A DNA stretch of 64,000 nucleotides from Limosilactobacillus panis (lineage in GTDB: Bacteria; Bacillota; Bacilli; Lactobacillales; Lactobacillaceae). Made by a program: the position numbers and the translations under genes. Location: the NCBI RefSeq assembly GCF_019797825.1, contig NZ_CP081855.1, positions 1,798,001 to 1,862,000 of the forward strand, written 5' to 3'. Positions 4,453 through 51,520 of this stretch are shown here, piece after piece. The notes under the pieces are model-generated. The model saw only the letters and a list, made by a program, of their open reading frames with translations. It was not told where the DNA came from and did no database searches. The number at the start of each line of letters is the position of its first letter. Positions within the stretch are counted from its first letter, which is position 1.

Positions 4453-6362
4453 ATCGAGTAGGAGGTAATTGATTAGTTCAATTACCGACCTCTCACACCA
4501 CCGTACGTACGGTTCCGTATACGGCGGTTCGACAATTTAATCACTTTTGAATTAACTGGAGCGTCTTGGACATATTTATTAGTCCAAGGTGCTCCAGTTT
4601 TCTATTTGTTAGAGAATAATTTAGTGTCTTACTGTGTGCAGTTCGCCAGTAACCCTTTCGGGTACTAGCGAAGACGAACGCATCATGATAAGACAAACCT
4701 AACTTCTGTAGGTGTACAACTTTAGTTTTGAATTTCTTCCATTGCTTCCAGATATATTGTCTTATTCGTGCTCTTAACCATTGATCAAGGCGGTGAATAA
4801 AATTGGCTAACTTCCCAATTGAGTAATACTGAAGCCAGCCACGCATCTTTTGGTGGATTTCTTCAAACATCTTGGTAAGAGAAACACCCCGATTACGCTT
4901 AGTTAGAAGCCTCAATGCTTGTTTTACTCGTTGTTGTGATTGTTTGGCTGGTCGGGCATAGGCACCATTACGGTCTACACCGAGTGAGAAGCCAAGAAAC
5001 TTCAACCTCAAGGGACTACCAATTTTGGTTTTATCTGGATTAACTTTAACTTTCAATCGCTTTTCAAGAAACTGAGTAATACTACGCATTACTCGTTCTC
5101 CGGCCCGCTGACTTTTAACATAGATGTTACAATCGTCCGCGTAGCGCACAAAGTGGTGACCACGTCTGGTCAGCTCTTTATCCAACTCATTTAAATAGAT
5201 ATTCGCTAGCAGTGGCGATAGTGGTCCTCCTTGCGGAGTTCCTTTGTCGCTCCTAACGAACAGCCCGTGGTCCAAGATTCCGCTAGTCAAAAACTTACGG
5301 ATAAGTCTTAGTGTCCATGGGTCATCAATATATTGTTGGAGGTATTTAATCATCAAATCATGGTTGACATTATCAAAATAGGCCTTAAGGTCTAAATCAA
5401 CTACCCGTCGATAACCTTGATTATATAGCTTAACTACCTTTGCGATTGCGTCTTGGGCTCCACGATGAGGGCGGAAACCAAAACTATTGTCAGAGAAAAC
5501 TCGCTCAAAGATGGGCGTGAGTACCTGGGCAACTGCTTGTTGGACCAGGCGGTCCACTACCGTTGGTATCCCTAGTTTTCTCACTCCACCGTTGGGCTTG
5601 GGAATTTCCACTCGTTTAACCGGTGCTGGCTTATAATTGCCCTCACGTAGGTTGGTGATTAATTCCGTTTTATTTTCCCTGAGGTAGGGCAGAAGGTCAT
5701 TGACAGTCATATCGTCAATACCCGCCGCTCCTTTATTTCTCTTAACTCGCAAATAAGCCTGATTAAGGTTATTGCGATCCAAGACTAAGTCTTGGATAGT
5801 GACACTCATACCTTTACCTTCACCATAATCGGTACTACGCGCCCTTGTGTACTTTCGGTTTTCCAAACCTATCCTCGACAAGCGGTCAGCTTGTGTTTCT
5901 GTTTTCTGCGATTGTCGCACCTGATTACACCTCCGATATAATTTATGAGTTATTGTCGTTCAGTCCTTCGTCTGACTAATCAGACTACTATGACCTCGGC
6001 TGACTTCTGACTTACTCAACACCACATCACTGTCGTGCTTGTTTCTGTGGAATTTCATTTATTCCTCTTGTCGGAAACGTGTAAGCCAGACCTCCCCGGG
6101 TAAGAATATTAACTTTCGTACCATGTCACCGTTAGCTTTACTGAAAGCAACTTCGAGTAGTATTGGACTTTAGTTTGTATGGCAACCTTATCCAGTTACT
6201 CTCAGCCTTATAGCTACTTCTTGTTCATCGGTGCAGTACTTTGCCTTAGACTTCCTTCAGATTCCACCTCACAGTGGACACCCTTGTCGTCAGCTCATGG
6301 TTCCGACTACTACGGCCCATAGTGGACTTTCACCGCCTAGTTAATACCCATGCCGGGCGCAC
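4453..6362 (-). mobile_element. Group IIC intron, copy 1
   Basis: About 1.91 kb, on the minus strand. The shared block 4452-6366 matches 31077-32991 (offset 26625 at both ends, no difference noticed by eye; the encoded proteins are identical). The 5' end reads GTGCGCCCGGCATGG at 6362, the canonical GUGYG start. Near the 3' end is a domain V-like hairpin (about 4495-4530, with CCGTATACGG and CCGTACGTACGG), then a domain VI-like hairpin GGTAATTGA / TCAATTACC and the end CTCGAT. The RT lacks an endonuclease domain. Insertion lies directly after the terminator hairpin of the upstream minus-strand gene (6366-6405), the class C habit. The 3' boundary is uncertain by 1-2 nt. Confidence 0.9.
4541..5920 (-). 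CDS. ltrA: Group IIC intron reverse transcriptase/maturase (copy 1)
   Basis: 459 residues, GTG start with SD GGAGGTG seven to eight bases upstream. RT fingers and palm motifs are evident: GIPTVVDRLVQQAV, SFGFRPHRGAQDA, the GTPQGGPLSPLLANI block, and the catalytic YADD at residues 260-263. A maturase/thumb (X) domain follows and the protein ends with the NTRKGYWR-like region (here STRKGYWRTAHS). There is no HNH endonuclease domain. Resemblance to the Geobacillus GsI-IIC and Bacillus halodurans class C enzymes is strong from memory. It promotes splicing and retrohoming of its own intron RNA. The frame is intact and identical in both copies. Confidence 0.95.
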   Translation of the reverse strand: MRQSQKTETQADRLSRIGLENRKYTRARSTDYGEGKGMSVTIQDLVLDRNNLNQAYLRVKRNKGAAGIDDMTVNDLLPYLRENKTELITNLREGNYKPAPVKRVEIPKPNGGVRKLGIPTVVDRLVQQAVAQVLTPIFERVFSDNSFGFRPHRGAQDAIAKVVKLYNQGYRRVVDLDLKAYFDNVNHDLMIKYLQQYIDDPWTLRLIRKFLTSGILDHGLFVRSDKGTPQGGPLSPLLANIYLNELDKELTRRGHHFVRYADDCNIYVKSQRAGERVMRSITQFLEKRLKVKVNPDKTKIGSPLRLKFLGFSLGVDRNGAYARPAKQSQQRVKQALRLLTKRNRGVSLTKMFEEIHQKMRGWLQYYSIGKLANFIHRLDQWLRARIRQYIWKQWKKFKTKVVHLQKLGLSYHDAFVFASTRKGYWRTAHSKTLNYSLTNRKLEHLGLINMSKTLQLIQK

Positions 6363-31077: not shown

Positions 31078-32987
31078 ATCGAGTAGGAGGTAATTGATTA
31101 GTTCAATTACCGACCTCTCACACCACCGTACGTACGGTTCCGTATACGGCGGTTCGACAATTTAATCACTTTTGAATTAACTGGAGCGTCTTGGACATAT
31201 TTATTAGTCCAAGGTGCTCCAGTTTTCTATTTGTTAGAGAATAATTTAGTGTCTTACTGTGTGCAGTTCGCCAGTAACCCTTTCGGGTACTAGCGAAGAC
31301 GAACGCATCATGATAAGACAAACCTAACTTCTGTAGGTGTACAACTTTAGTTTTGAATTTCTTCCATTGCTTCCAGATATATTGTCTTATTCGTGCTCTT
31401 AACCATTGATCAAGGCGGTGAATAAAATTGGCTAACTTCCCAATTGAGTAATACTGAAGCCAGCCACGCATCTTTTGGTGGATTTCTTCAAACATCTTGG
31501 TAAGAGAAACACCCCGATTACGCTTAGTTAGAAGCCTCAATGCTTGTTTTACTCGTTGTTGTGATTGTTTGGCTGGTCGGGCATAGGCACCATTACGGTC
31601 TACACCGAGTGAGAAGCCAAGAAACTTCAACCTCAAGGGACTACCAATTTTGGTTTTATCTGGATTAACTTTAACTTTCAATCGCTTTTCAAGAAACTGA
31701 GTAATACTACGCATTACTCGTTCTCCGGCCCGCTGACTTTTAACATAGATGTTACAATCGTCCGCGTAGCGCACAAAGTGGTGACCACGTCTGGTCAGCT
31801 CTTTATCCAACTCATTTAAATAGATATTCGCTAGCAGTGGCGATAGTGGTCCTCCTTGCGGAGTTCCTTTGTCGCTCCTAACGAACAGCCCGTGGTCCAA
31901 GATTCCGCTAGTCAAAAACTTACGGATAAGTCTTAGTGTCCATGGGTCATCAATATATTGTTGGAGGTATTTAATCATCAAATCATGGTTGACATTATCA
32001 AAATAGGCCTTAAGGTCTAAATCAACTACCCGTCGATAACCTTGATTATATAGCTTAACTACCTTTGCGATTGCGTCTTGGGCTCCACGATGAGGGCGGA
32101 AACCAAAACTATTGTCAGAGAAAACTCGCTCAAAGATGGGCGTGAGTACCTGGGCAACTGCTTGTTGGACCAGGCGGTCCACTACCGTTGGTATCCCTAG
32201 TTTTCTCACTCCACCGTTGGGCTTGGGAATTTCCACTCGTTTAACCGGTGCTGGCTTATAATTGCCCTCACGTAGGTTGGTGATTAATTCCGTTTTATTT
32301 TCCCTGAGGTAGGGCAGAAGGTCATTGACAGTCATATCGTCAATACCCGCCGCTCCTTTATTTCTCTTAACTCGCAAATAAGCCTGATTAAGGTTATTGC
32401 GATCCAAGACTAAGTCTTGGATAGTGACACTCATACCTTTACCTTCACCATAATCGGTACTACGCGCCCTTGTGTACTTTCGGTTTTCCAAACCTATCCT
32501 CGACAAGCGGTCAGCTTGTGTTTCTGTTTTCTGCGATTGTCGCACCTGATTACACCTCCGATATAATTTATGAGTTATTGTCGTTCAGTCCTTCGTCTGA
32601 CTAATCAGACTACTATGACCTCGGCTGACTTCTGACTTACTCAACACCACATCACTGTCGTGCTTGTTTCTGTGGAATTTCATTTATTCCTCTTGTCGGA
32701 AACGTGTAAGCCAGACCTCCCCGGGTAAGAATATTAACTTTCGTACCATGTCACCGTTAGCTTTACTGAAAGCAACTTCGAGTAGTATTGGACTTTAGTT
32801 TGTATGGCAACCTTATCCAGTTACTCTCAGCCTTATAGCTACTTCTTGTTCATCGGTGCAGTACTTTGCCTTAGACTTCCTTCAGATTCCACCTCACAGT
32901 GGACACCCTTGTCGTCAGCTCATGGTTCCGACTACTACGGCCCATAGTGGACTTTCACCGCCTAGTTAATACCCATGCCGGGCGCAC
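31078..32987 (-). mobile_element. Group IIC intron, copy 2
   Basis: Same element as 4453-6362, shared block 31077-32991, constant offset of 26625. It shows the same GTGCGCCCGG 5' end (32987) and the same domain V/VI hairpins near the left end. It sits right after the terminator hairpin 32993-33029 of the minus-strand DHH gene, in the same orientation as that gene. The flanking exon bases differ from copy 1 (TAATGTG versus TTTTTGTG before the intron), which shows an independent insertion. Confidence 0.9.
31166..32545 (-). CDS. ltrA: Group IIC intron reverse transcriptase/maturase (copy 2)
   Basis: 459 residues, identical in sequence to the protein encoded at 4541-5920, GTG start with GGAGGTG. 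YADD and all RT blocks are intact. Identity of both copies points to recent movement or to gene conversion. The protein of either copy could serve both introns in trans. Confidence 0.95.
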   Translation of the reverse strand: MRQSQKTETQADRLSRIGLENRKYTRARSTDYGEGKGMSVTIQDLVLDRNNLNQAYLRVKRNKGAAGIDDMTVNDLLPYLRENKTELITNLREGNYKPAPVKRVEIPKPNGGVRKLGIPTVVDRLVQQAVAQVLTPIFERVFSDNSFGFRPHRGAQDAIAKVVKLYNQGYRRVVDLDLKAYFDNVNHDLMIKYLQQYIDDPWTLRLIRKFLTSGILDHGLFVRSDKGTPQGGPLSPLLANIYLNELDKELTRRGHHFVRYADDCNIYVKSQRAGERVMRSITQFLEKRLKVKVNPDKTKIGSPLRLKFLGFSLGVDRNGAYARPAKQSQQRVKQALRLLTKRNRGVSLTKMFEEIHQKMRGWLQYYSIGKLANFIHRLDQWLRARIRQYIWKQWKKFKTKVVHLQKLGLSYHDAFVFASTRKGYWRTAHSKTLNYSLTNRKLEHLGLINMSKTLQLIQK

Positions 32988-35555: not shown

Positions 35556-35840
35556 CAATAATTTAATTATTTGATCGCAATGAGAAAGAAGAGTACCTTT
35601 ACCAGCGACATCAGCGAGTCTCGTGAGGTGTGAGGAGGCAGTCCAACGGCAAGGGGAAAATCACTTTCGAGTCCTAATCTTAAAATCCAGTAAGACTAGG
35701 TGGTAACACCCATTATCGTGTCAGCGTATCGCTATTTAGCCGTACGTGAAGAGGTTGTTTGATGACAGCCTGAAAATAGGGTGGTACCACGCTAATGCGT
35801 CCCTTAACCAATGTAAAAGTTGGTTAAGGGACTTTTTTAT
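35556..35840 (+). promoter_or_regulatory. T-box riboswitch, Ile-type
   Basis: Leader of about 285 nt with the conserved T-box AGGGTGGTACCACG (35778-35791) and the terminator stem GTCCCTTAACCAA / TTGGTTAAGGGAC (35799-35811, 35820-35832) plus six T. On the 3' side of stem I the loop GAAAATCAC places ATC (35660-35662) as the likely specifier codon, followed by A as is usual. Uncharged tRNA-Ile would open the antiterminator. This suits the branched-chain amino acid carrier gene downstream. Confidence 0.9.
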
Positions 35841-40497: not shown

Positions 40498-40526
40498 TTG
40501 ACACCGGAAATGACCTTAGCTATACT
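40498..40526 (+). promoter_or_regulatory. Consensus promoter of the trpXYZ-like operon
   Basis: TTGACA (40498-40503), exactly 17 bases, TATACT (40521-40526). It is one of the best sigma-A promoters in the window and leaves a leader of about 245 nt before trpX. Confidence 0.85.
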
Positions 40527-40557
40527 AAAAGCAATTATTAATTAGGGAGTAAATATT

Positions 40558-40608
40558 ATGAAGCAAAATCAGTTCAACATTCGAAATAATCGTTGGCAAA
40601 GCCGGTAG
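40558..40608 (+). CDS. Putative Trp-containing leader peptide (16 residues)
   Basis: ATG at 40558 with AGGGAG nine bases upstream; translation gives MKQNQFNIRNNRWQSR and a TAG. The single Trp codon is residue 13 of 16, close to the stop as in regulatory leader peptides such as TrpL and TnaC. It starts about 25 nt after the predicted transcript start and precedes stable hairpins and a tryptophan-type transporter operon. Translation has not been shown; it is an inference from SD, Trp and context. Confidence 0.6.
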   Translation: MKQNQFNIRNNRWQSR

Positions 40609-40757
40609 TTTCAGGTTGATTCGACATGGATGCAACCTGAAAAGCAGATTGCATCTGTGCCGGCTGATTTTGACATTCATTCAGTCCGCATGGATCCACA
40701 TGCGGACTTTTATTTTGCTTTCAAAATGGGAGTCCCGCAATGTGGACTCCCATTTTT
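40597..40757 (+). promoter_or_regulatory. Attenuator-like structured leader of trpX
   Basis: Elements in order: outer stem AGCCGG/CCGGCT (40600-40605, 40660-40665) closing a possible three-way junction with hairpins TTTCAGGTTG/CAACCTGAAA (40609-40618, 40633-40642) and CAGAT/ATCTG (40645-40657); hairpin 1:2 AGTCCGCATG/CATGCGGACT (40683-40692, 40699-40708) with a T-rich tail; hairpin 3:4 ATGGGAGTCC/GGACTCCCAT (40726-40735, 40744-40753) plus five T, a terminator. Arm 2 (40698-40708) can instead pair with arm 3 (40731-40743), excluding both hairpins, which is the logic of an attenuator. No T-box motif is present. Confidence 0.7.
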
Positions 40758-40776
40758 ATATTAGAAAGGTGTGAAG

Positions 40777-41769
40777 ATGATGAAGCGAATGTATACCCTA
40801 ATCGCACTTTTAGTGGCCTTCTTAGGTGTAGCATTCTTTAAGGAAAGTGGGGGCTTTATTAAACAGCGGGTGCCAAAAGTCGGGGTTTTAACCCTGATGC
40901 ACCACCCTGCCCTGGGCCAAATTTATAAGGGCTACGTCCACGAACTAGCACGTGAGGGGTACCGCAACGGAAAAAACATCAAGATTGAATACGAGAACGC
41001 CAACGGGGACCAGAGTAACCTTAAGACCATGGCCTCCAAGCTGGTCAATGACAATTGCAATGTCATTTACGGAATCACTACGCCAGCGGCCCAGGCCGTC
41101 GCTAATTCGACTACCAAGACACCAATTGTCCTAGGCGCGGTAACCGACCCGAAAAGCGCCGGTCTAATCAAGAACAACCGCCACCCGGGTGGCAACATCA
41201 GTGGTGTTTCTGACCAGGCACCAATCAAAGAACAGCTGGGCCTAATCAAACGTTTTATGCCGAGGATGAAGACTCTCGGGGTAATCTACACTTCCAGTGA
41301 TGCATCCGCTGTTGCCGGCTATCACCAAATCAAGCAAGAATGCAAGACGATGGGTATCACCCTGAAGTCCTATTCAATTGCCAACAGTAACGACCTTAAC
41401 CAGGTTTCCGAACAGATGCTCCAGGAAGTCGATGCCGTCATCGTTCCCACCGACAACACCATTGCCGGGGCCATGCAGACCCTCGTCAAGAACGCCAACG
41501 CCGCCAACAAGCCGGTCTTCCCCGCCTCTGACACAATGGTCAAGCAGGGGGGCGTGGCAACCTACAGTGTTAACCAGTACGAGCTCGGTGTCCGCAGTGC
41601 CAAGATGACGGTGGCAATTCTGAAGGGCAAGAAACCGGCCAACATGCCGATCGAATATGTCCGCCACGGTGAGCCCGTCCTCAACCTGAAGCAGGCCCGC
41701 CGCCTCCACTTACAAGTACCGCAGGGCTTTGAACACGAAGCCAAAACGAAAGGAGAGATCTATCAATGA
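40777..41769 (+). CDS. trpX: ABC transporter substrate-binding protein, TrpX-like
   Basis: 330 residues from the ATG at 40777 (AAAGG seven bases upstream; a GTG at 40771 is also open). N-terminal anchor (about 5-22), then a periplasmic-binding-protein-like fold: VGVLTLMHHPALGQIYKGY, TPAAQAVAN, LGAVTDPKSAGL, ISGVSDQAPI and a late TYSVNQYELG. This is the COG2984 family whose operon (COG2984/4120/1101) is linked to tryptophan uptake in streptococci through Trp T-boxes. Here the preceding leader carries a Trp-containing micro-ORF. It overlaps the permease gene by 4 bases. Confidence 0.85.
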   Translation: MMKRMYTLIALLVAFLGVAFFKESGGFIKQRVPKVGVLTLMHHPALGQIYKGYVHELAREGYRNGKNIKIEYENANGDQSNLKTMASKLVNDNCNVIYGITTPAAQAVANSTTKTPIVLGAVTDPKSAGLIKNNRHPGGNISGVSDQAPIKEQLGLIKRFMPRMKTLGVIYTSSDASAVAGYHQIKQECKTMGITLKSYSIANSNDLNQVSEQMLQEVDAVIVPTDNTIAGAMQTLVKNANAANKPVFPASDTMVKQGGVATYSVNQYELGVRSAKMTVAILKGKKPANMPIEYVRHGEPVLNLKQARRLHLQVPQGFEHEAKTKGEIYQ

Positions 41770-42665
41770 ATCTAATGGTATCAGCAATCGGGCAAGGATT
41801 ATTATGGGCTTTATTGGGTCTGGGCCTTTACCTAACGTTTAGAATCCTCGACTTCTGTGATATGACCGTTGAAGGGACCTTCCCTCTCGGGGCCGCCACC
41901 GCGGTAACCGCCATTGCGCACGGGATTGACCCCCTCTTGGCAACCCTCCTAGCGGTTGTCAGCGGGATGCTCGCCGGCCTTGTCACCGGCCTCCTCTACA
42001 CGAAGGGGAAGATTCCCAGCCTCTTGGCGGGGATCTTAACCATGACCGCAATCTACTCCGTTAACCTCCGGATCATGGGGAAGTCCAACATTTCACTACT
42101 CGGTAAGCAGACCCTCTTCAGTGGCCACTTCATGACGAGCCTCCCCCAATACTTTGACAGCGTCGTGATGGGCGTCATCGTGATTGCCATCATCACCATC
42201 CTGATGGTCCTCTTCTTAGCAACCGACTATGGTCAAGCCTTCATTGCAACCGGTGATAACCCAACAATGGCCAAGTCACTGGGGATTCATACCGACAAGA
42301 TGGTGATCGTTGGCTTGATGGTTTCCAACGGGATGGTTGGCCTTTGTGGGGCCTTAATCGCCCAAAACAACGGTTACGCCGACATCAACATGGGGATTGG
42401 GACCATCGTTATCGCCCTGGCCTCCATCATCATTGGAGAAGTGGCGTTCGGCGAGTTAACCCTTAACCAACGGCTCTTGGCCGTAACCCTCGGCAGTATC
42501 ATCTACCGGATTATTTTATTGGTCGTTCTCCAGCTCGGTTTCTCCGCCAACGACCTCAACCTGATTTCATCAATCGTTCTGGCAATCTGCATGATGATTC
42601 CCCAACTGGAAAGTCACTTGCAGATTCGTAAACCAATTTTGAAGGGAGTGCGGCCACATGAATAA
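41766..42665 (+). CDS. trpY: ABC transporter permease, TrpY-like
   Basis: 299 residues, eight to nine membrane segments, COG4120 type related to sugar/BPD_transp_2 permeases: LGLYLTFRILDFCDMTVEGTFPLG near the N-terminus, ALIAQNNGYADINMGIGTIVIALASIIIGE (in parts) around 195-225. Starts within the 3' end of trpX and ends 8 bases inside trpZ, so all three are coupled. Confidence 0.85.
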   Translation: MNLMVSAIGQGLLWALLGLGLYLTFRILDFCDMTVEGTFPLGAATAVTAIAHGIDPLLATLLAVVSGMLAGLVTGLLYTKGKIPSLLAGILTMTAIYSVNLRIMGKSNISLLGKQTLFSGHFMTSLPQYFDSVVMGVIVIAIITILMVLFLATDYGQAFIATGDNPTMAKSLGIHTDKMVIVGLMVSNGMVGLCGALIAQNNGYADINMGIGTIVIALASIIIGEVAFGELTLNQRLLAVTLGSIIYRIILLVVLQLGFSANDLNLISSIVLAICMMIPQLESHLQIRKPILKGVRPHE

Positions 42666-43422
42666 GCCCATCTTAGAACTAAAGGATGTCAAAACCATCG
42701 TTAACAAGGGGACGAGCAACGAAACGACCATCCTCAAGGGGATTAACCTCAAGATTAACGAAGGCGACTTCATTACCATCGTGGGGACAAACGGGGCCGG
42801 TAAGTCAACCCTCTTCAACGTTATCGGGGGAAACCTCCGGGCCGACTACGGGGAAATCCTCCACAACGGTCACGACATCACCAAGACCACCGAGGAGCAG
42901 CGGACAACGTTCTTAGCACGGGTCTTCCAGGACCCTAAGTTGGGAACGGCTCCCCGGATGACGGTAGCGGAAAACATGCTGCTGGCAACGAAACGGGGGG
43001 AGCGCCGTCACCTCACCCTGCGGAAGCTCAAGGGGAACATGGCCCGCTTTACCAAGCTGGCCGCCACCATGAATAACGGCCTGGAAAACCGGATGACCAC
43101 CGCAACGGGTGCCCTCTCCGGTGGCCAACGGCAGGCCCTGAGTTTCCTGATGGCCACCCTCAAACGACCGGACATCCTCTTGCTAGATGAACACACCGCT
43201 GCCCTTGACCCCCACACCAGTCAAAACCTCATCCACGCCACGAACGAACGAATCACCCAGGACCATCTGACGGCCTTGATGATCACCCACCACCTGGAGG
43301 ACGCCATCAAGTACGGCAACCGGCTGATCGTCCTTAAAGACGGTCAAATCAAGGCGGACTACCAAGGGGCTGACAAGGCTCGTTTGACGGCCAAGGACCT
43401 GTACGAATACTTCGAAAGTTAG
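42658..43422 (+). CDS. trpZ: ABC transporter ATP-binding protein, TrpZ-like
   Basis: 254 residues: Walker A GTNGAGKST (about 43-51), Q-loop FQDPKLGTAPRMTVAENM, signature LSGGQRQALSF, Walker B DILLLDEHTAALDP (with EHTAALDP typical of COG1101), and H-loop ITHHLE. ATG at 42658 overlaps the trpY stop region. A weak hairpin GCTTCC/GGAAGC follows, then the C69 dipeptidase gene. Confidence 0.88.
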   Translation: MNKPILELKDVKTIVNKGTSNETTILKGINLKINEGDFITIVGTNGAGKSTLFNVIGGNLRADYGEILHNGHDITKTTEEQRTTFLARVFQDPKLGTAPRMTVAENMLLATKRGERRHLTLRKLKGNMARFTKLAATMNNGLENRMTTATGALSGGQRQALSFLMATLKRPDILLLDEHTAALDPHTSQNLIHATNERITQDHLTALMITHHLEDAIKYGNRLIVLKDGQIKADYQGADKARLTAKDLYEYFES

Positions 43423-49733: not shown

Positions 49734-49762
49734 TTGACATGGTAGGATATCAACAATGCAAT
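49734..49762 (+). promoter_or_regulatory. Promoter of the purine riboswitch transcript
   Basis: TTGACA (49734-49739), 17-base spacer, TGCAAT (49757-49762) as a weak -10. Confidence 0.55.
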
Positions 49763-49773
49763 TTACTAAACAA

Positions 49774-49892
49774 GTGGCCTATATAATGCCGTAATACGGA
49801 CGGCAGTCTCTACCCGGAGCCATAAACTCTGGACTATAAGCAATTTGAACATAAGCTCTCATTGCTTTGCAAAAGGCAAGGAGAGCTTTTTT
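49774..49892 (+). promoter_or_regulatory. Purine (guanine-type) riboswitch with terminator
   Basis: Aptamer 49774-49845: P1-side CTATATAAT, P2 TGCCG/CGGCA, junction AGTCTCTACC, P3 CCGGAG/CTCTGG and the 3' part GGACTATA. The C in GACTATA corresponds to the base that reads guanine or hypoxanthine; adenine sensors have U. The expression platform is AAGCTCTC/GAGAGCTT (49853-49860, 49881-49888) plus a T run. Ligand binding should terminate transcription of the permease gene. Confidence 0.92.
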
Positions 49893-51290: not shown

Positions 51291-51296
51291 AGCTTT

Positions 51297-51520
51297 AACA
51301 ATTATCATTTCAGTAGACGCTTCGTTCGGTGTCAGAGAGCCGGTGGGGATGTGCGAACCGGTCAGGCGGAGAATGTCGAATTATCACGGATAAATAATTG
51401 TCCGGCCACATTCAGTGCCGTTACCACCTGATATGAGGATGGAGTATTTCCATAACTCGGGTGGTACCGCGGTTTAAAACAGTCGCCCCGTTGAAGCAAA
51501 ATTCAACGGGGCGTTTTTTC
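51297..51520 (+). promoter_or_regulatory. T-box riboswitch upstream of the NhaC-family gene
   Basis: Stem I with AGAGAGCCGG and GCGAACCGGT, T-box TCGGGTGGTACCGCGG (51457-51472), terminator CGCCCCGTTGAA / TTCAACGGGGCG (51484-51495, 51502-51513) and six T. The specifier loop reads GAATTATCACGG; by the same offset as in the brnQ T-box the codon would be ATC (51383-51385, Ile), but TAT (Tyr) one base earlier is not excluded. Tyrosine has been proposed for T-box-linked NhaC transporters, so the amino acid remains open. Confidence 0.88.

Follow-up and report, generated by a model that had tools for sequence, protein, structure and literature searches.

The leader in front of the trpXYZ operon of Limosilactobacillus panis is very probably a ribosome-mediated transcription attenuator, and a member of a family in which the regulatory codon can be swapped, as judged from comparative analysis of its sequence. 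The window, meaning the whole stretch of DNA that was analyzed, is 64,000 nucleotides long, and coordinates below are positions in it unless another record is named. The leader spans 40498-40770 and contains a short leader ORF (uORF) and eight arms, A through H; neighboring arms are able to pair, and D can also pair with A.

The trpXYZ leader and its leader ORF

The features of the leader and operon are as follows.

40498-40526, + strand: sigma-70-type promoter, TTGACA-17-TATACT, matching 11 of 12 consensus positions
40544-40549, + strand: Shine-Dalgarno sequence AGGGAG of the leader ORF, read from the sequence
40558-40608, + strand: leader ORF (uORF) of 16 codons, MKQNQFNIRNNRWQSR and stop, conserved across relatives
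40594-40596, + strand: putative regulatory Trp codon TGG, the sole Trp codon of this uORF, invariant in alignment A1 (25 rows)
40600-40607, + strand: arm A, overlapping the end of the uORF, pairing with D at 40658-40665 (8 of 8 pairs)
40609-40618, + strand: arm B, beginning directly after the stop codon, pairing with C
40623-40642, + strand: arm C, of which 40633-40642 pairs with B and 40625-40635 pairs with D
40649-40667, + strand: arm D, the putative antiterminator strand, pairing with A, C, or E
40681-40695, + strand: arm E, 5' arm of terminator 1 (stem 40683-40692), with D as alternative partner
40699-40716, + strand: arm F, 3' arm of terminator 1 plus U tract, from a terminator scan and E:F covariation; 40704-40717 can pair with G
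40722-40757, + strand: second terminator-like hairpin plus U tract, with arms G (40723-40735) and H (40744-40756); G can pair with F
40623-40717, + strand: sub-threshold match to Rfam RF04312 (trpB motif), 46.9 bits, E 1.3e-5
40777-41769, + strand: trpX, the predicted regulated gene, with Shine-Dalgarno sequence at 40763-40769; NCBIfam NF041285 TrpX equivalog, 455 bits against a cut-off of 390
41766-42665, + strand: trpY, permease (Pfam BPD_transp_2)
42658-43422, + strand: trpZ, ATPase (Pfam ABC_tran)

The closest named relative found for the TrpX of the window was Limosilactobacillus panis TrpX, at 96%. A first-pass annotation of this DNA had described the near-consensus promoter and a 16-codon ORF with a Shine-Dalgarno sequence and one Trp codon near its stop, and each was located at the positions listed. 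The three-way junction that it drew over the uORF stop codon was borne out by folding (minimum free energy -32.5 kcal/mol, z -4.82), as were its two successive hairpins (z -5.51 for 40683-40708 and z -6.01 for about 40723-40756). The whole leader folded far better than shuffled sequences (z -6.49, 0 of 200). The alternative pairing between these hairpins (F with G), put by the annotation at about 11 bp, came to 14 of 14 pairs, three of which are G-U (40704-40717 with 40722-40735). The D:E antiterminator pairing, 14 of 15 pairs between 40653-40667 and 40681-40695, was absent from that annotation.

The annotation had also named in advance, as the result that would count against it, a frame or Trp codon not conserved in relatives. 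Start, Trp codon, and stop of the uORF were conserved in all 20 Lactobacillaceae TrpX loci of a scan of named genomes (17 titled Limosilactobacillus), and frame and codon were kept widely in Lactobacillales. The 21st TrpX locus of that scan, from Erysipelotrichaceae (L128), showed no uORF and had a T-box just upstream instead. Leader DNA was matched in 43 of 50 genomes of the genus, the window's own included, some of the matches being partial. At 30 loci of this genus search, TGGCAAAGCCGG followed by TAA, TAG, or TGA was kept, and the sequence ahead of it varied.

The leader matched RF04312 in a permissive Rfam scan, where its 46.9 bits missed the gathering score of 59. This match, which was not among the observations of the first-pass annotation, covers the model over its full length (1-107), with the P1 hairpin and a terminator hairpin with U run present, and the leader aligns with over-threshold RF04312 members in alignment A1. 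Other weak Rfam matches over the leader (E 0.25-5.7) were taken as chance, with the exception of RF02863; the RF02863 match was itself weak (E 2.1), that family turned out elsewhere to be the Tyr/Phe form, and the window's own genome had no RF02863 match at E ≤ 0.001. About 2.5 kb past the end of the window (locus L039, G000:C1:1864521-1864622), another TrpX-type gene follows a leader of its own, in which the uORF reads MSFRFTQLNNWQSR and stop. That paralogous leader passes the RF04312 cut-off at 63.8 bits.

Searches with RF04312 gave matches in 108 of 301 genomes of the family, 135 of 295 of the order, and 6 of 398 phylum-wide; by reading of the sequences, the real matches of the phylum-wide search were those in G000, G558, and G661, and its loci L078-L080 were dropped as false. 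We fetched 213 loci and removed ten false hits (L041-L046, in the window's own genome with E 0.01-0.15, L078-L080, and L235), leaving 203. Since the dropped loci L078 and L235 had E ≤ 1e-4, the denominator at that threshold is 205. Five more places, the same as L013, L018, L019, L022, and L024, were not refetched; all five end in TGGCAAAGCCGG.

A short uORF, ending ahead of the motif, preceded 203 of the 205 RF04312 matches examined at E ≤ 1e-4. Since the part matched by RF04312 starts downstream of the uORF, the search did not select for uORFs, and they count as independent evidence. The start was an ATG with Shine-Dalgarno sequence in 194 of the 203 uORFs, nine being recognized only under looser start rules, and Trp stood within ten codons of the stop in 197. 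Under the strict rule (Shine-Dalgarno plus ATG) Trp uORFs were present at 188 of 203 loci, compared to a mean of 1.65 and a maximum of 4 in 20 rounds of shuffling (1.15 and 4 in a repeat); under the loosest rule (ATG, GTG, or TTG, no Shine-Dalgarno) there were 197, compared to a mean of 13.05 and a maximum of 20. Stop codons were TAG in 98, TAA in 70, and TGA in 35. Sixty-two fetched places passed the Rfam cut-off in a hand count of the tables, 61 with Trp and one (L050) with His, and among 12 weaker Lactobacillaceae matches fetched (E 1e-4 to 1e-3), seven had a Trp uORF near the stop and five did not. Classical attenuators usually carry more than one regulatory codon. Trp is encoded once in the window uORF; among the 203 uORFs, Trp codons numbered two in 120 cases, one in 76, three in one, and none in six (five Tyr/Phe, one His).

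Other RNA elements of the window include parts of a group II intron at 4453-6278 and at 31078-32903 on the - strand, which have identical Rfam scores and are likely near-identical copies, a T-box at 35571-35807, a second, sub-threshold T-box at 51295-51493 (63.2 bits), and a purine riboswitch at 49759-49856. At locus L047, in another record, the first sizeable ORF after a trpX-type leader looks on reading like a group II intron reverse transcriptase, and an intron may have inserted there between leader and gene.

Pairing arms and a proposed mechanism

Comparative tests support the pairings A:D, B:C, C:D, D:E, E:F, and F:G as conserved, covarying, or better in native than in exchanged partners. 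We compared native arms with arms swapped between loci in 72 sequence clusters and repeated the test with GC-matched partners. Native pairing was stronger for A:D (z -7.6; GC-matched, -6.6), B:C (-9.7; -8.9), C:D (-10.3; -9.4), D:E (-7.1; -6.2), and F:G (-6.8; -6.2), and for E:F z was -21.2. Control combinations were flat (A:E, 0.0; B:E, 0.6; 5'UTR with D, -0.2; downstream sequence with D, 1.1). The 5' part of the uORF with D, meant as a negative control, was not flat (z -4.6; GC-matched, -4.5). In the window, the uORF start at 40558-40575 can pair with about 40664-40679 after arm D (AAGCAAAATCAG with CTGATTTTGAC).

Covariation was assessed in two alignments: A1, all 25 filtered one-Trp Lactobacillaceae leaders, and A2, 42 of 58 two-Trp leaders, the other 16 having been left out before counting. 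Pairs were counted for A:D, C:D, D:E, and E:F in A1, where the register of B:C varies, and for A:D, B:C, and D:E in A2. None of 500 shuffles reached the covariation score of A:D, C:D, D:E, or E:F in A1. There A:D was paired in 98.5% of 200 cells (0 of 500 shuffles as high) and D:E in 97.5% of 275 cells, and C:D showed changes on both sides at 7 of 11 pairs. A:D and B:C also paired above shuffles in A2 (B:C, 94.2%), whereas D:E was weakly supported in that alignment, with 82.2% paired and 39 of 500 shuffles reaching its covariation score. Pairs of A:D with double changes were not above shuffles (two pairs in A1, with as many in 105 of 500; 67 of 500 in A2), nor were further pair types for A:D (476 of 500 in A1, 119 of 500 in A2), B:C (498), or D:E in A2 (429).

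Covariation in A1 and the swap tests point to a D:E antiterminator and an E:F intrinsic terminator that are mutually exclusive, D:E being the weaker in A2. Of 260 loci, 110 have a second hairpin followed by a U tract; at these loci, which are not independent of one another, F:G paired at -12.93 kcal/mol with native arms compared to -8.73 kcal/mol with swapped arms. This makes the alternative pairing between the two hairpins, noticed in the first-pass annotation, a recurring feature.

The spacing of these arms relative to the uORF, which has coding signatures, suggests how a ribosome could select among them. For the middle half of loci, 12-21 nt separate the start of the last regulatory Trp codon from arm B, arm B starts a median of 0 nt after the stop codon, and the A:D helix occupies about -19 to -2 nt (medians) relative to the end of the stop codon. 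The footprint assumed for the ribosome reaches to about 13 nt, counted from where the A-site codon starts. With that footprint and this spacing, a ribosome on the regulatory codon would mask A and spare B, and one at the stop codon would mask B too.

We infer that the uORF is translated, that tryptophan is the signal, and that control runs in the following direction. When charged tRNA-Trp is short, the ribosome would stall on TGG and mask A without masking B; B:C would form, leaving D free for D:E, and F would pair with G. With D:E and F:G in place both terminators would fail and trpXYZ would be made. When tryptophan is plentiful, the ribosome would reach the stop codon and mask A and B, so that C would take D and both E:F and G:H would terminate transcription. 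With no translation, A:D and B:C would form and transcription would also stop. A change of regulatory codon with matching changes in D would retune the device to His, Tyr/Phe, or Leu.

This scheme was examined by equilibrium folding of 260 loci under simulated ribosome masking, the measure being the expected number of E bases paired upstream. The values were 5.57 with no ribosome, 9.62-10.19 with a stalled ribosome, and 6.09 with a ribosome at the stop. The window leader gave 1.58, 8.97, and 6.47, respectively, and the paralogous leader L039 gave no contrast (7.75 free, 8.87 stalled, and 9.17 at the stop). In the stalled state of 140 loci, native E scored 10.58 compared to 7.09 for shuffled E and 8.96 for swapped E, indicating that removal of a competitor explains part of the rise, not all of it. 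The state with the ribosome at the stop was only partly OFF in equilibrium folding; the scheme would need C:D to form first while RNA polymerase moves on.

Leader codons, downstream genes, and alternative readings

The codons of the uORF appear to match the amino acid of the downstream gene, the substrates of the transporters being predicted ones. In another order of the phylum, by our guess a clostridial one, RF04312 gave matches in 40 of 194 genomes, none over the cut-off. We examined 57 of the 59 places there (L077 had been examined earlier, and one overlaps L324); 56 of the 57 loci had a strict uORF of recognizable class, compared to a mean of 1.7 and a maximum of 4 in shuffles. Codons and genes were then tabulated for 269 loci, with leader classes assigned by our own rule and gene classes by phmmer against 13 chosen seeds, some checked with Pfam or NCBIfam.

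TrpX-like genes (n = 178): Trp 174, Tyr/Phe 4
trpB: Trp 13 of 13
hisS: His 11 of 11
hisZ: His 1 of 1
one symporter (SNF) group: Leu 8 of 8
other SNF group: Tyr/Phe 24 of 25
BrnQ-like: Tyr/Phe 5 of 5
TrpY-like permease-first operons: Tyr/Phe 6 of 6
aroE: Tyr/Phe 1 of 1
transketolase: YYWF 2 of 2
membrane protein behind leaders, five loci: all Trp
OppA-like, one: Trp
basic amino-acid antiporter-like, one: His
loci without an assigned gene: 12

The figure of 174 counts as Trp two loci, L250 and L251, that the rule called His and that are really Trp (WHSH). Endings on the same scaffold included HHHH, FFFSFFR, YYFSYFR, and LLLLANL. In a quick tree of 67 TrpX-family proteins (52 with Trp leaders, one per sequence cluster, 14 with Tyr/Phe leaders, and one with a T-box; two rows are long branches), the Trp and Tyr/Phe leaders were split by one branch (SH-aLRT 99; 0 of 500 shuffles), so that the leader codon follows the transporter clade. 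Forcing a separation between the 14 Tyr/Phe proteins and the remaining 53, among which the T-box row was counted, cost 3.29 log units (AU p 0.241).

Several single cases extend this table. BrnQ-like carriers, of a branched-chain amino acid family, stand behind Tyr/Phe leaders at L276, L283 (Pfam-checked), L288, L292, and L293, which suggests aromatic substrates for them. The membrane protein behind WQAWY or WQVWY leaders at L132, L162, L164, L165, and L340 is predicted to be a Trp-related transporter; the first 150 residues of the L165 protein had no match in Pfam or NCBIfam. YYWF leaders precede a transketolase gene at L163 and L167, as though all three aromatic amino acids took part in sensing how much of an aromatic precursor is supplied.

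A TrpX-like gene on a plasmid of Enterococcus gallinarum (L303:1157-1345) led to Rfam RF02863, "Enterococcus sRNA 2410", which was present in 68 of 118 Lactobacillales genomes. Among its 20 best loci (L346-L365), 19 had a Tyr/Phe uORF ending in FSYFR, and nine preceded TrpX-like genes and 11 aroE. RF02863 has the look of an attenuator with a Tyr/Phe leader peptide that serves TrpX-like and aroE genes, not that of a free sRNA. A plasmid of Ilyobacter polytropus (Fusobacteriota) had a weak RF04312 match (36 bits, E 9.4e-4 for that record) that follows the frame MASQNLTNWYFYYYFRN and stop, read by eye and not listed by the script, and precedes a DAHP synthase gene.

Taken together, we consider it likely that RF04312, RF02863, and the window leader are one ancient ribosome-sensing scaffold of Bacillota and probably Fusobacteriota. 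Its alternately pairing arms, with their phase set by the stalled ribosome, would disarm two tandem terminators in many members, and its specificity would change by a swap of uORF codons with matching changes in arm D. Such a scaffold would be a ribosome-based counterpart of the T-box whose codons predict transporter substrates. Sensing of charged tRNA by the ribosome is consistent with a single scaffold that carries Trp, His, Leu, or Tyr/Phe codons according to the gene behind it, and codon swapping is hard to reconcile with a single aptamer or a single arrest peptide.

The first-pass annotation had left open sensing by translation of a micro-ORF or by a direct aptamer; conserved Trp uORFs and codons that track the gene strongly support the former and do not support the aptamer. 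Direct binding of tryptophan or another amino-acid-related ligand by the trpB motif RNA is the reading first put forward by Narunsky et al. (2024); in the portions of their article drawn on here (PMC11109978), the motif has a terminator plus an antiterminator shoulder and is rated among the strong riboswitch candidates. However, nearly every match examined is preceded by a uORF, with codons tracking the gene across four specificities, and on inspection the invariant columns of A1 outside the uORF all lay in pairing arms or the U tract; no conserved unpaired ligand pocket was seen in its 25 leaders. We regard a true riboswitch as very improbable.

A TnaC-like arrest peptide, in which the nascent ..WQSR would let the ribosome sense free tryptophan and stall at high tryptophan, draws on the peptide itself. 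WQSR is a common C terminus in Lactobacillaceae and ends 33 of the 203 uORFs, the residue after the first Trp is Gln in 162 of 197 (codon CAA in 161, CAG in 1), and 76 uORFs have a single Trp codon. Gln elsewhere in these uORFs was CAA in 263 of 291, so codon bias explains part of the CAA after Trp, and not why Gln is kept. However, the endings change with specificity on the same scaffold, from HHHH to LLLLANL, and the last Trp codon is as near as 1 codon or as far as 10 codons from the stop. The QSR codons also overlap the A:D pairing: a synonymous CGG to CGA change occurred at four loci, three of them in A1 with a U opposite in D, which indicates that part of the peptide conservation is RNA pairing. 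Among uORFs whose endings vary this widely, no conserved peptide independent of RNA pairing was found, and we hold arrest by the peptide to be highly unlikely.

Chances are slighter still for a divergent T-box that senses tRNA-Trp directly, a mode of control shown for trpX in S. suis (in the excerpt of PMC9382623 used here) and suggested by the T-box upstream of TrpX at L128. As the first-pass annotation had reported, no T-box was found in the leader, whether at the gathering score or in a permissive scan (RF00230), and none of 27 T-box matches genome-wide overlapped it. Attenuation by a bound protein, TRAP-like or another, in which the uORF would be incidental, was kept open by the discoverers of the trpB motif (PMC11109978, in part), would leave the tracking of gene by codon unexplained, and is given next to no probability here.

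Attenuation by a translating ribosome, the reading we prefer, would give a published orphan riboswitch candidate a testable identity, and if the trpB motif is a leader-peptide attenuator, a screen for its ligand would probably come to nothing. The same reading suggests that the cataloged "sRNA" RF02863 is a leader, and points to an attenuator that has kept one RNA scaffold and changed its specificity among Trp, Tyr/Phe, His, and Leu. From the leader codon, substrates could be predicted for poorly characterized transporters, among them the Tyr/Phe-type and Leu-type symporters and those BrnQ-like carriers that have aromatic leaders. How two tandem terminators might be opened together is suggested by the F:G coupling.

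Comparison with known systems

The trp, his, and phe leader-peptide attenuators of E. coli combine a peptide of regulatory codons with mutually exclusive antiterminator and terminator structures. Unlike them, the scaffold of the window has two extra arms before the terminator decision, often has a second terminator coupled through F:G, has its codons swapped on one scaffold, and occurs in Bacillota. Leader-peptide attenuation is classical, and a general account is available (PMC9413887, consulted in part).

Examples in Firmicutes also exist, so the first-pass remark that such sensing would be unusual in Firmicutes was only partly right. His leader peptides are in print for bacilli, Peptostreptococcaceae, and Erysipelotrichales (PMC2965389, PMC9413887), and a Leu-rich attenuator peptide for S. 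aureus (PMC5794164), all three papers being drawn on in excerpt. The His attenuators resemble the scaffold proposed here in being ribosome-mediated, with His runs before hisS, hisZ, or his operons; the excerpts of PMC2965389 and PMC9413887 describe them as His cases and draw no connection to the trpB motif or other amino acids.

The first-pass statement that the streptococcal trpX transporter is linked to Trp T-boxes was correct. The T-box of S. suis controls the same gene and is ON at low tryptophan; unlike in the window leader, tRNA binds the RNA directly and there is no uORF (PMC9382623, same excerpt).

RF02863 shares the layout with uORF and the position before TrpX-like and aroE genes (20 best matches and one plasmid locus); unlike the window leader, it is cataloged as an sRNA and carries Tyr/Phe and not Trp.

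The trpB motif (RF04312, SRC-39-1) is the nearest known relative. Like the window leader it has a C:D hairpin and then the terminator E:F, with an amino-acid ABC transporter downstream; its model starts 3' of the uORF and so is without arms A and B, and the window copy falls below its gathering score. In the portions of PMC11109978 drawn on, the motif has more than 900 representatives in Firmicutes and Fusobacteria, mostly before an uncharacterized ABC transporter, and is presented as a strong but orphan riboswitch candidate, with a classic attenuator kept possible and no mention of a uORF for it. No report of a uORF for this motif was found in the literature searched, a set that left most subscription papers, preprints, and supplements outside. 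As far as these searches show, four points are new: what the trpB motif is, that RF02863 belongs with it, that codons are swapped on one scaffold, and that a second terminator is coupled.
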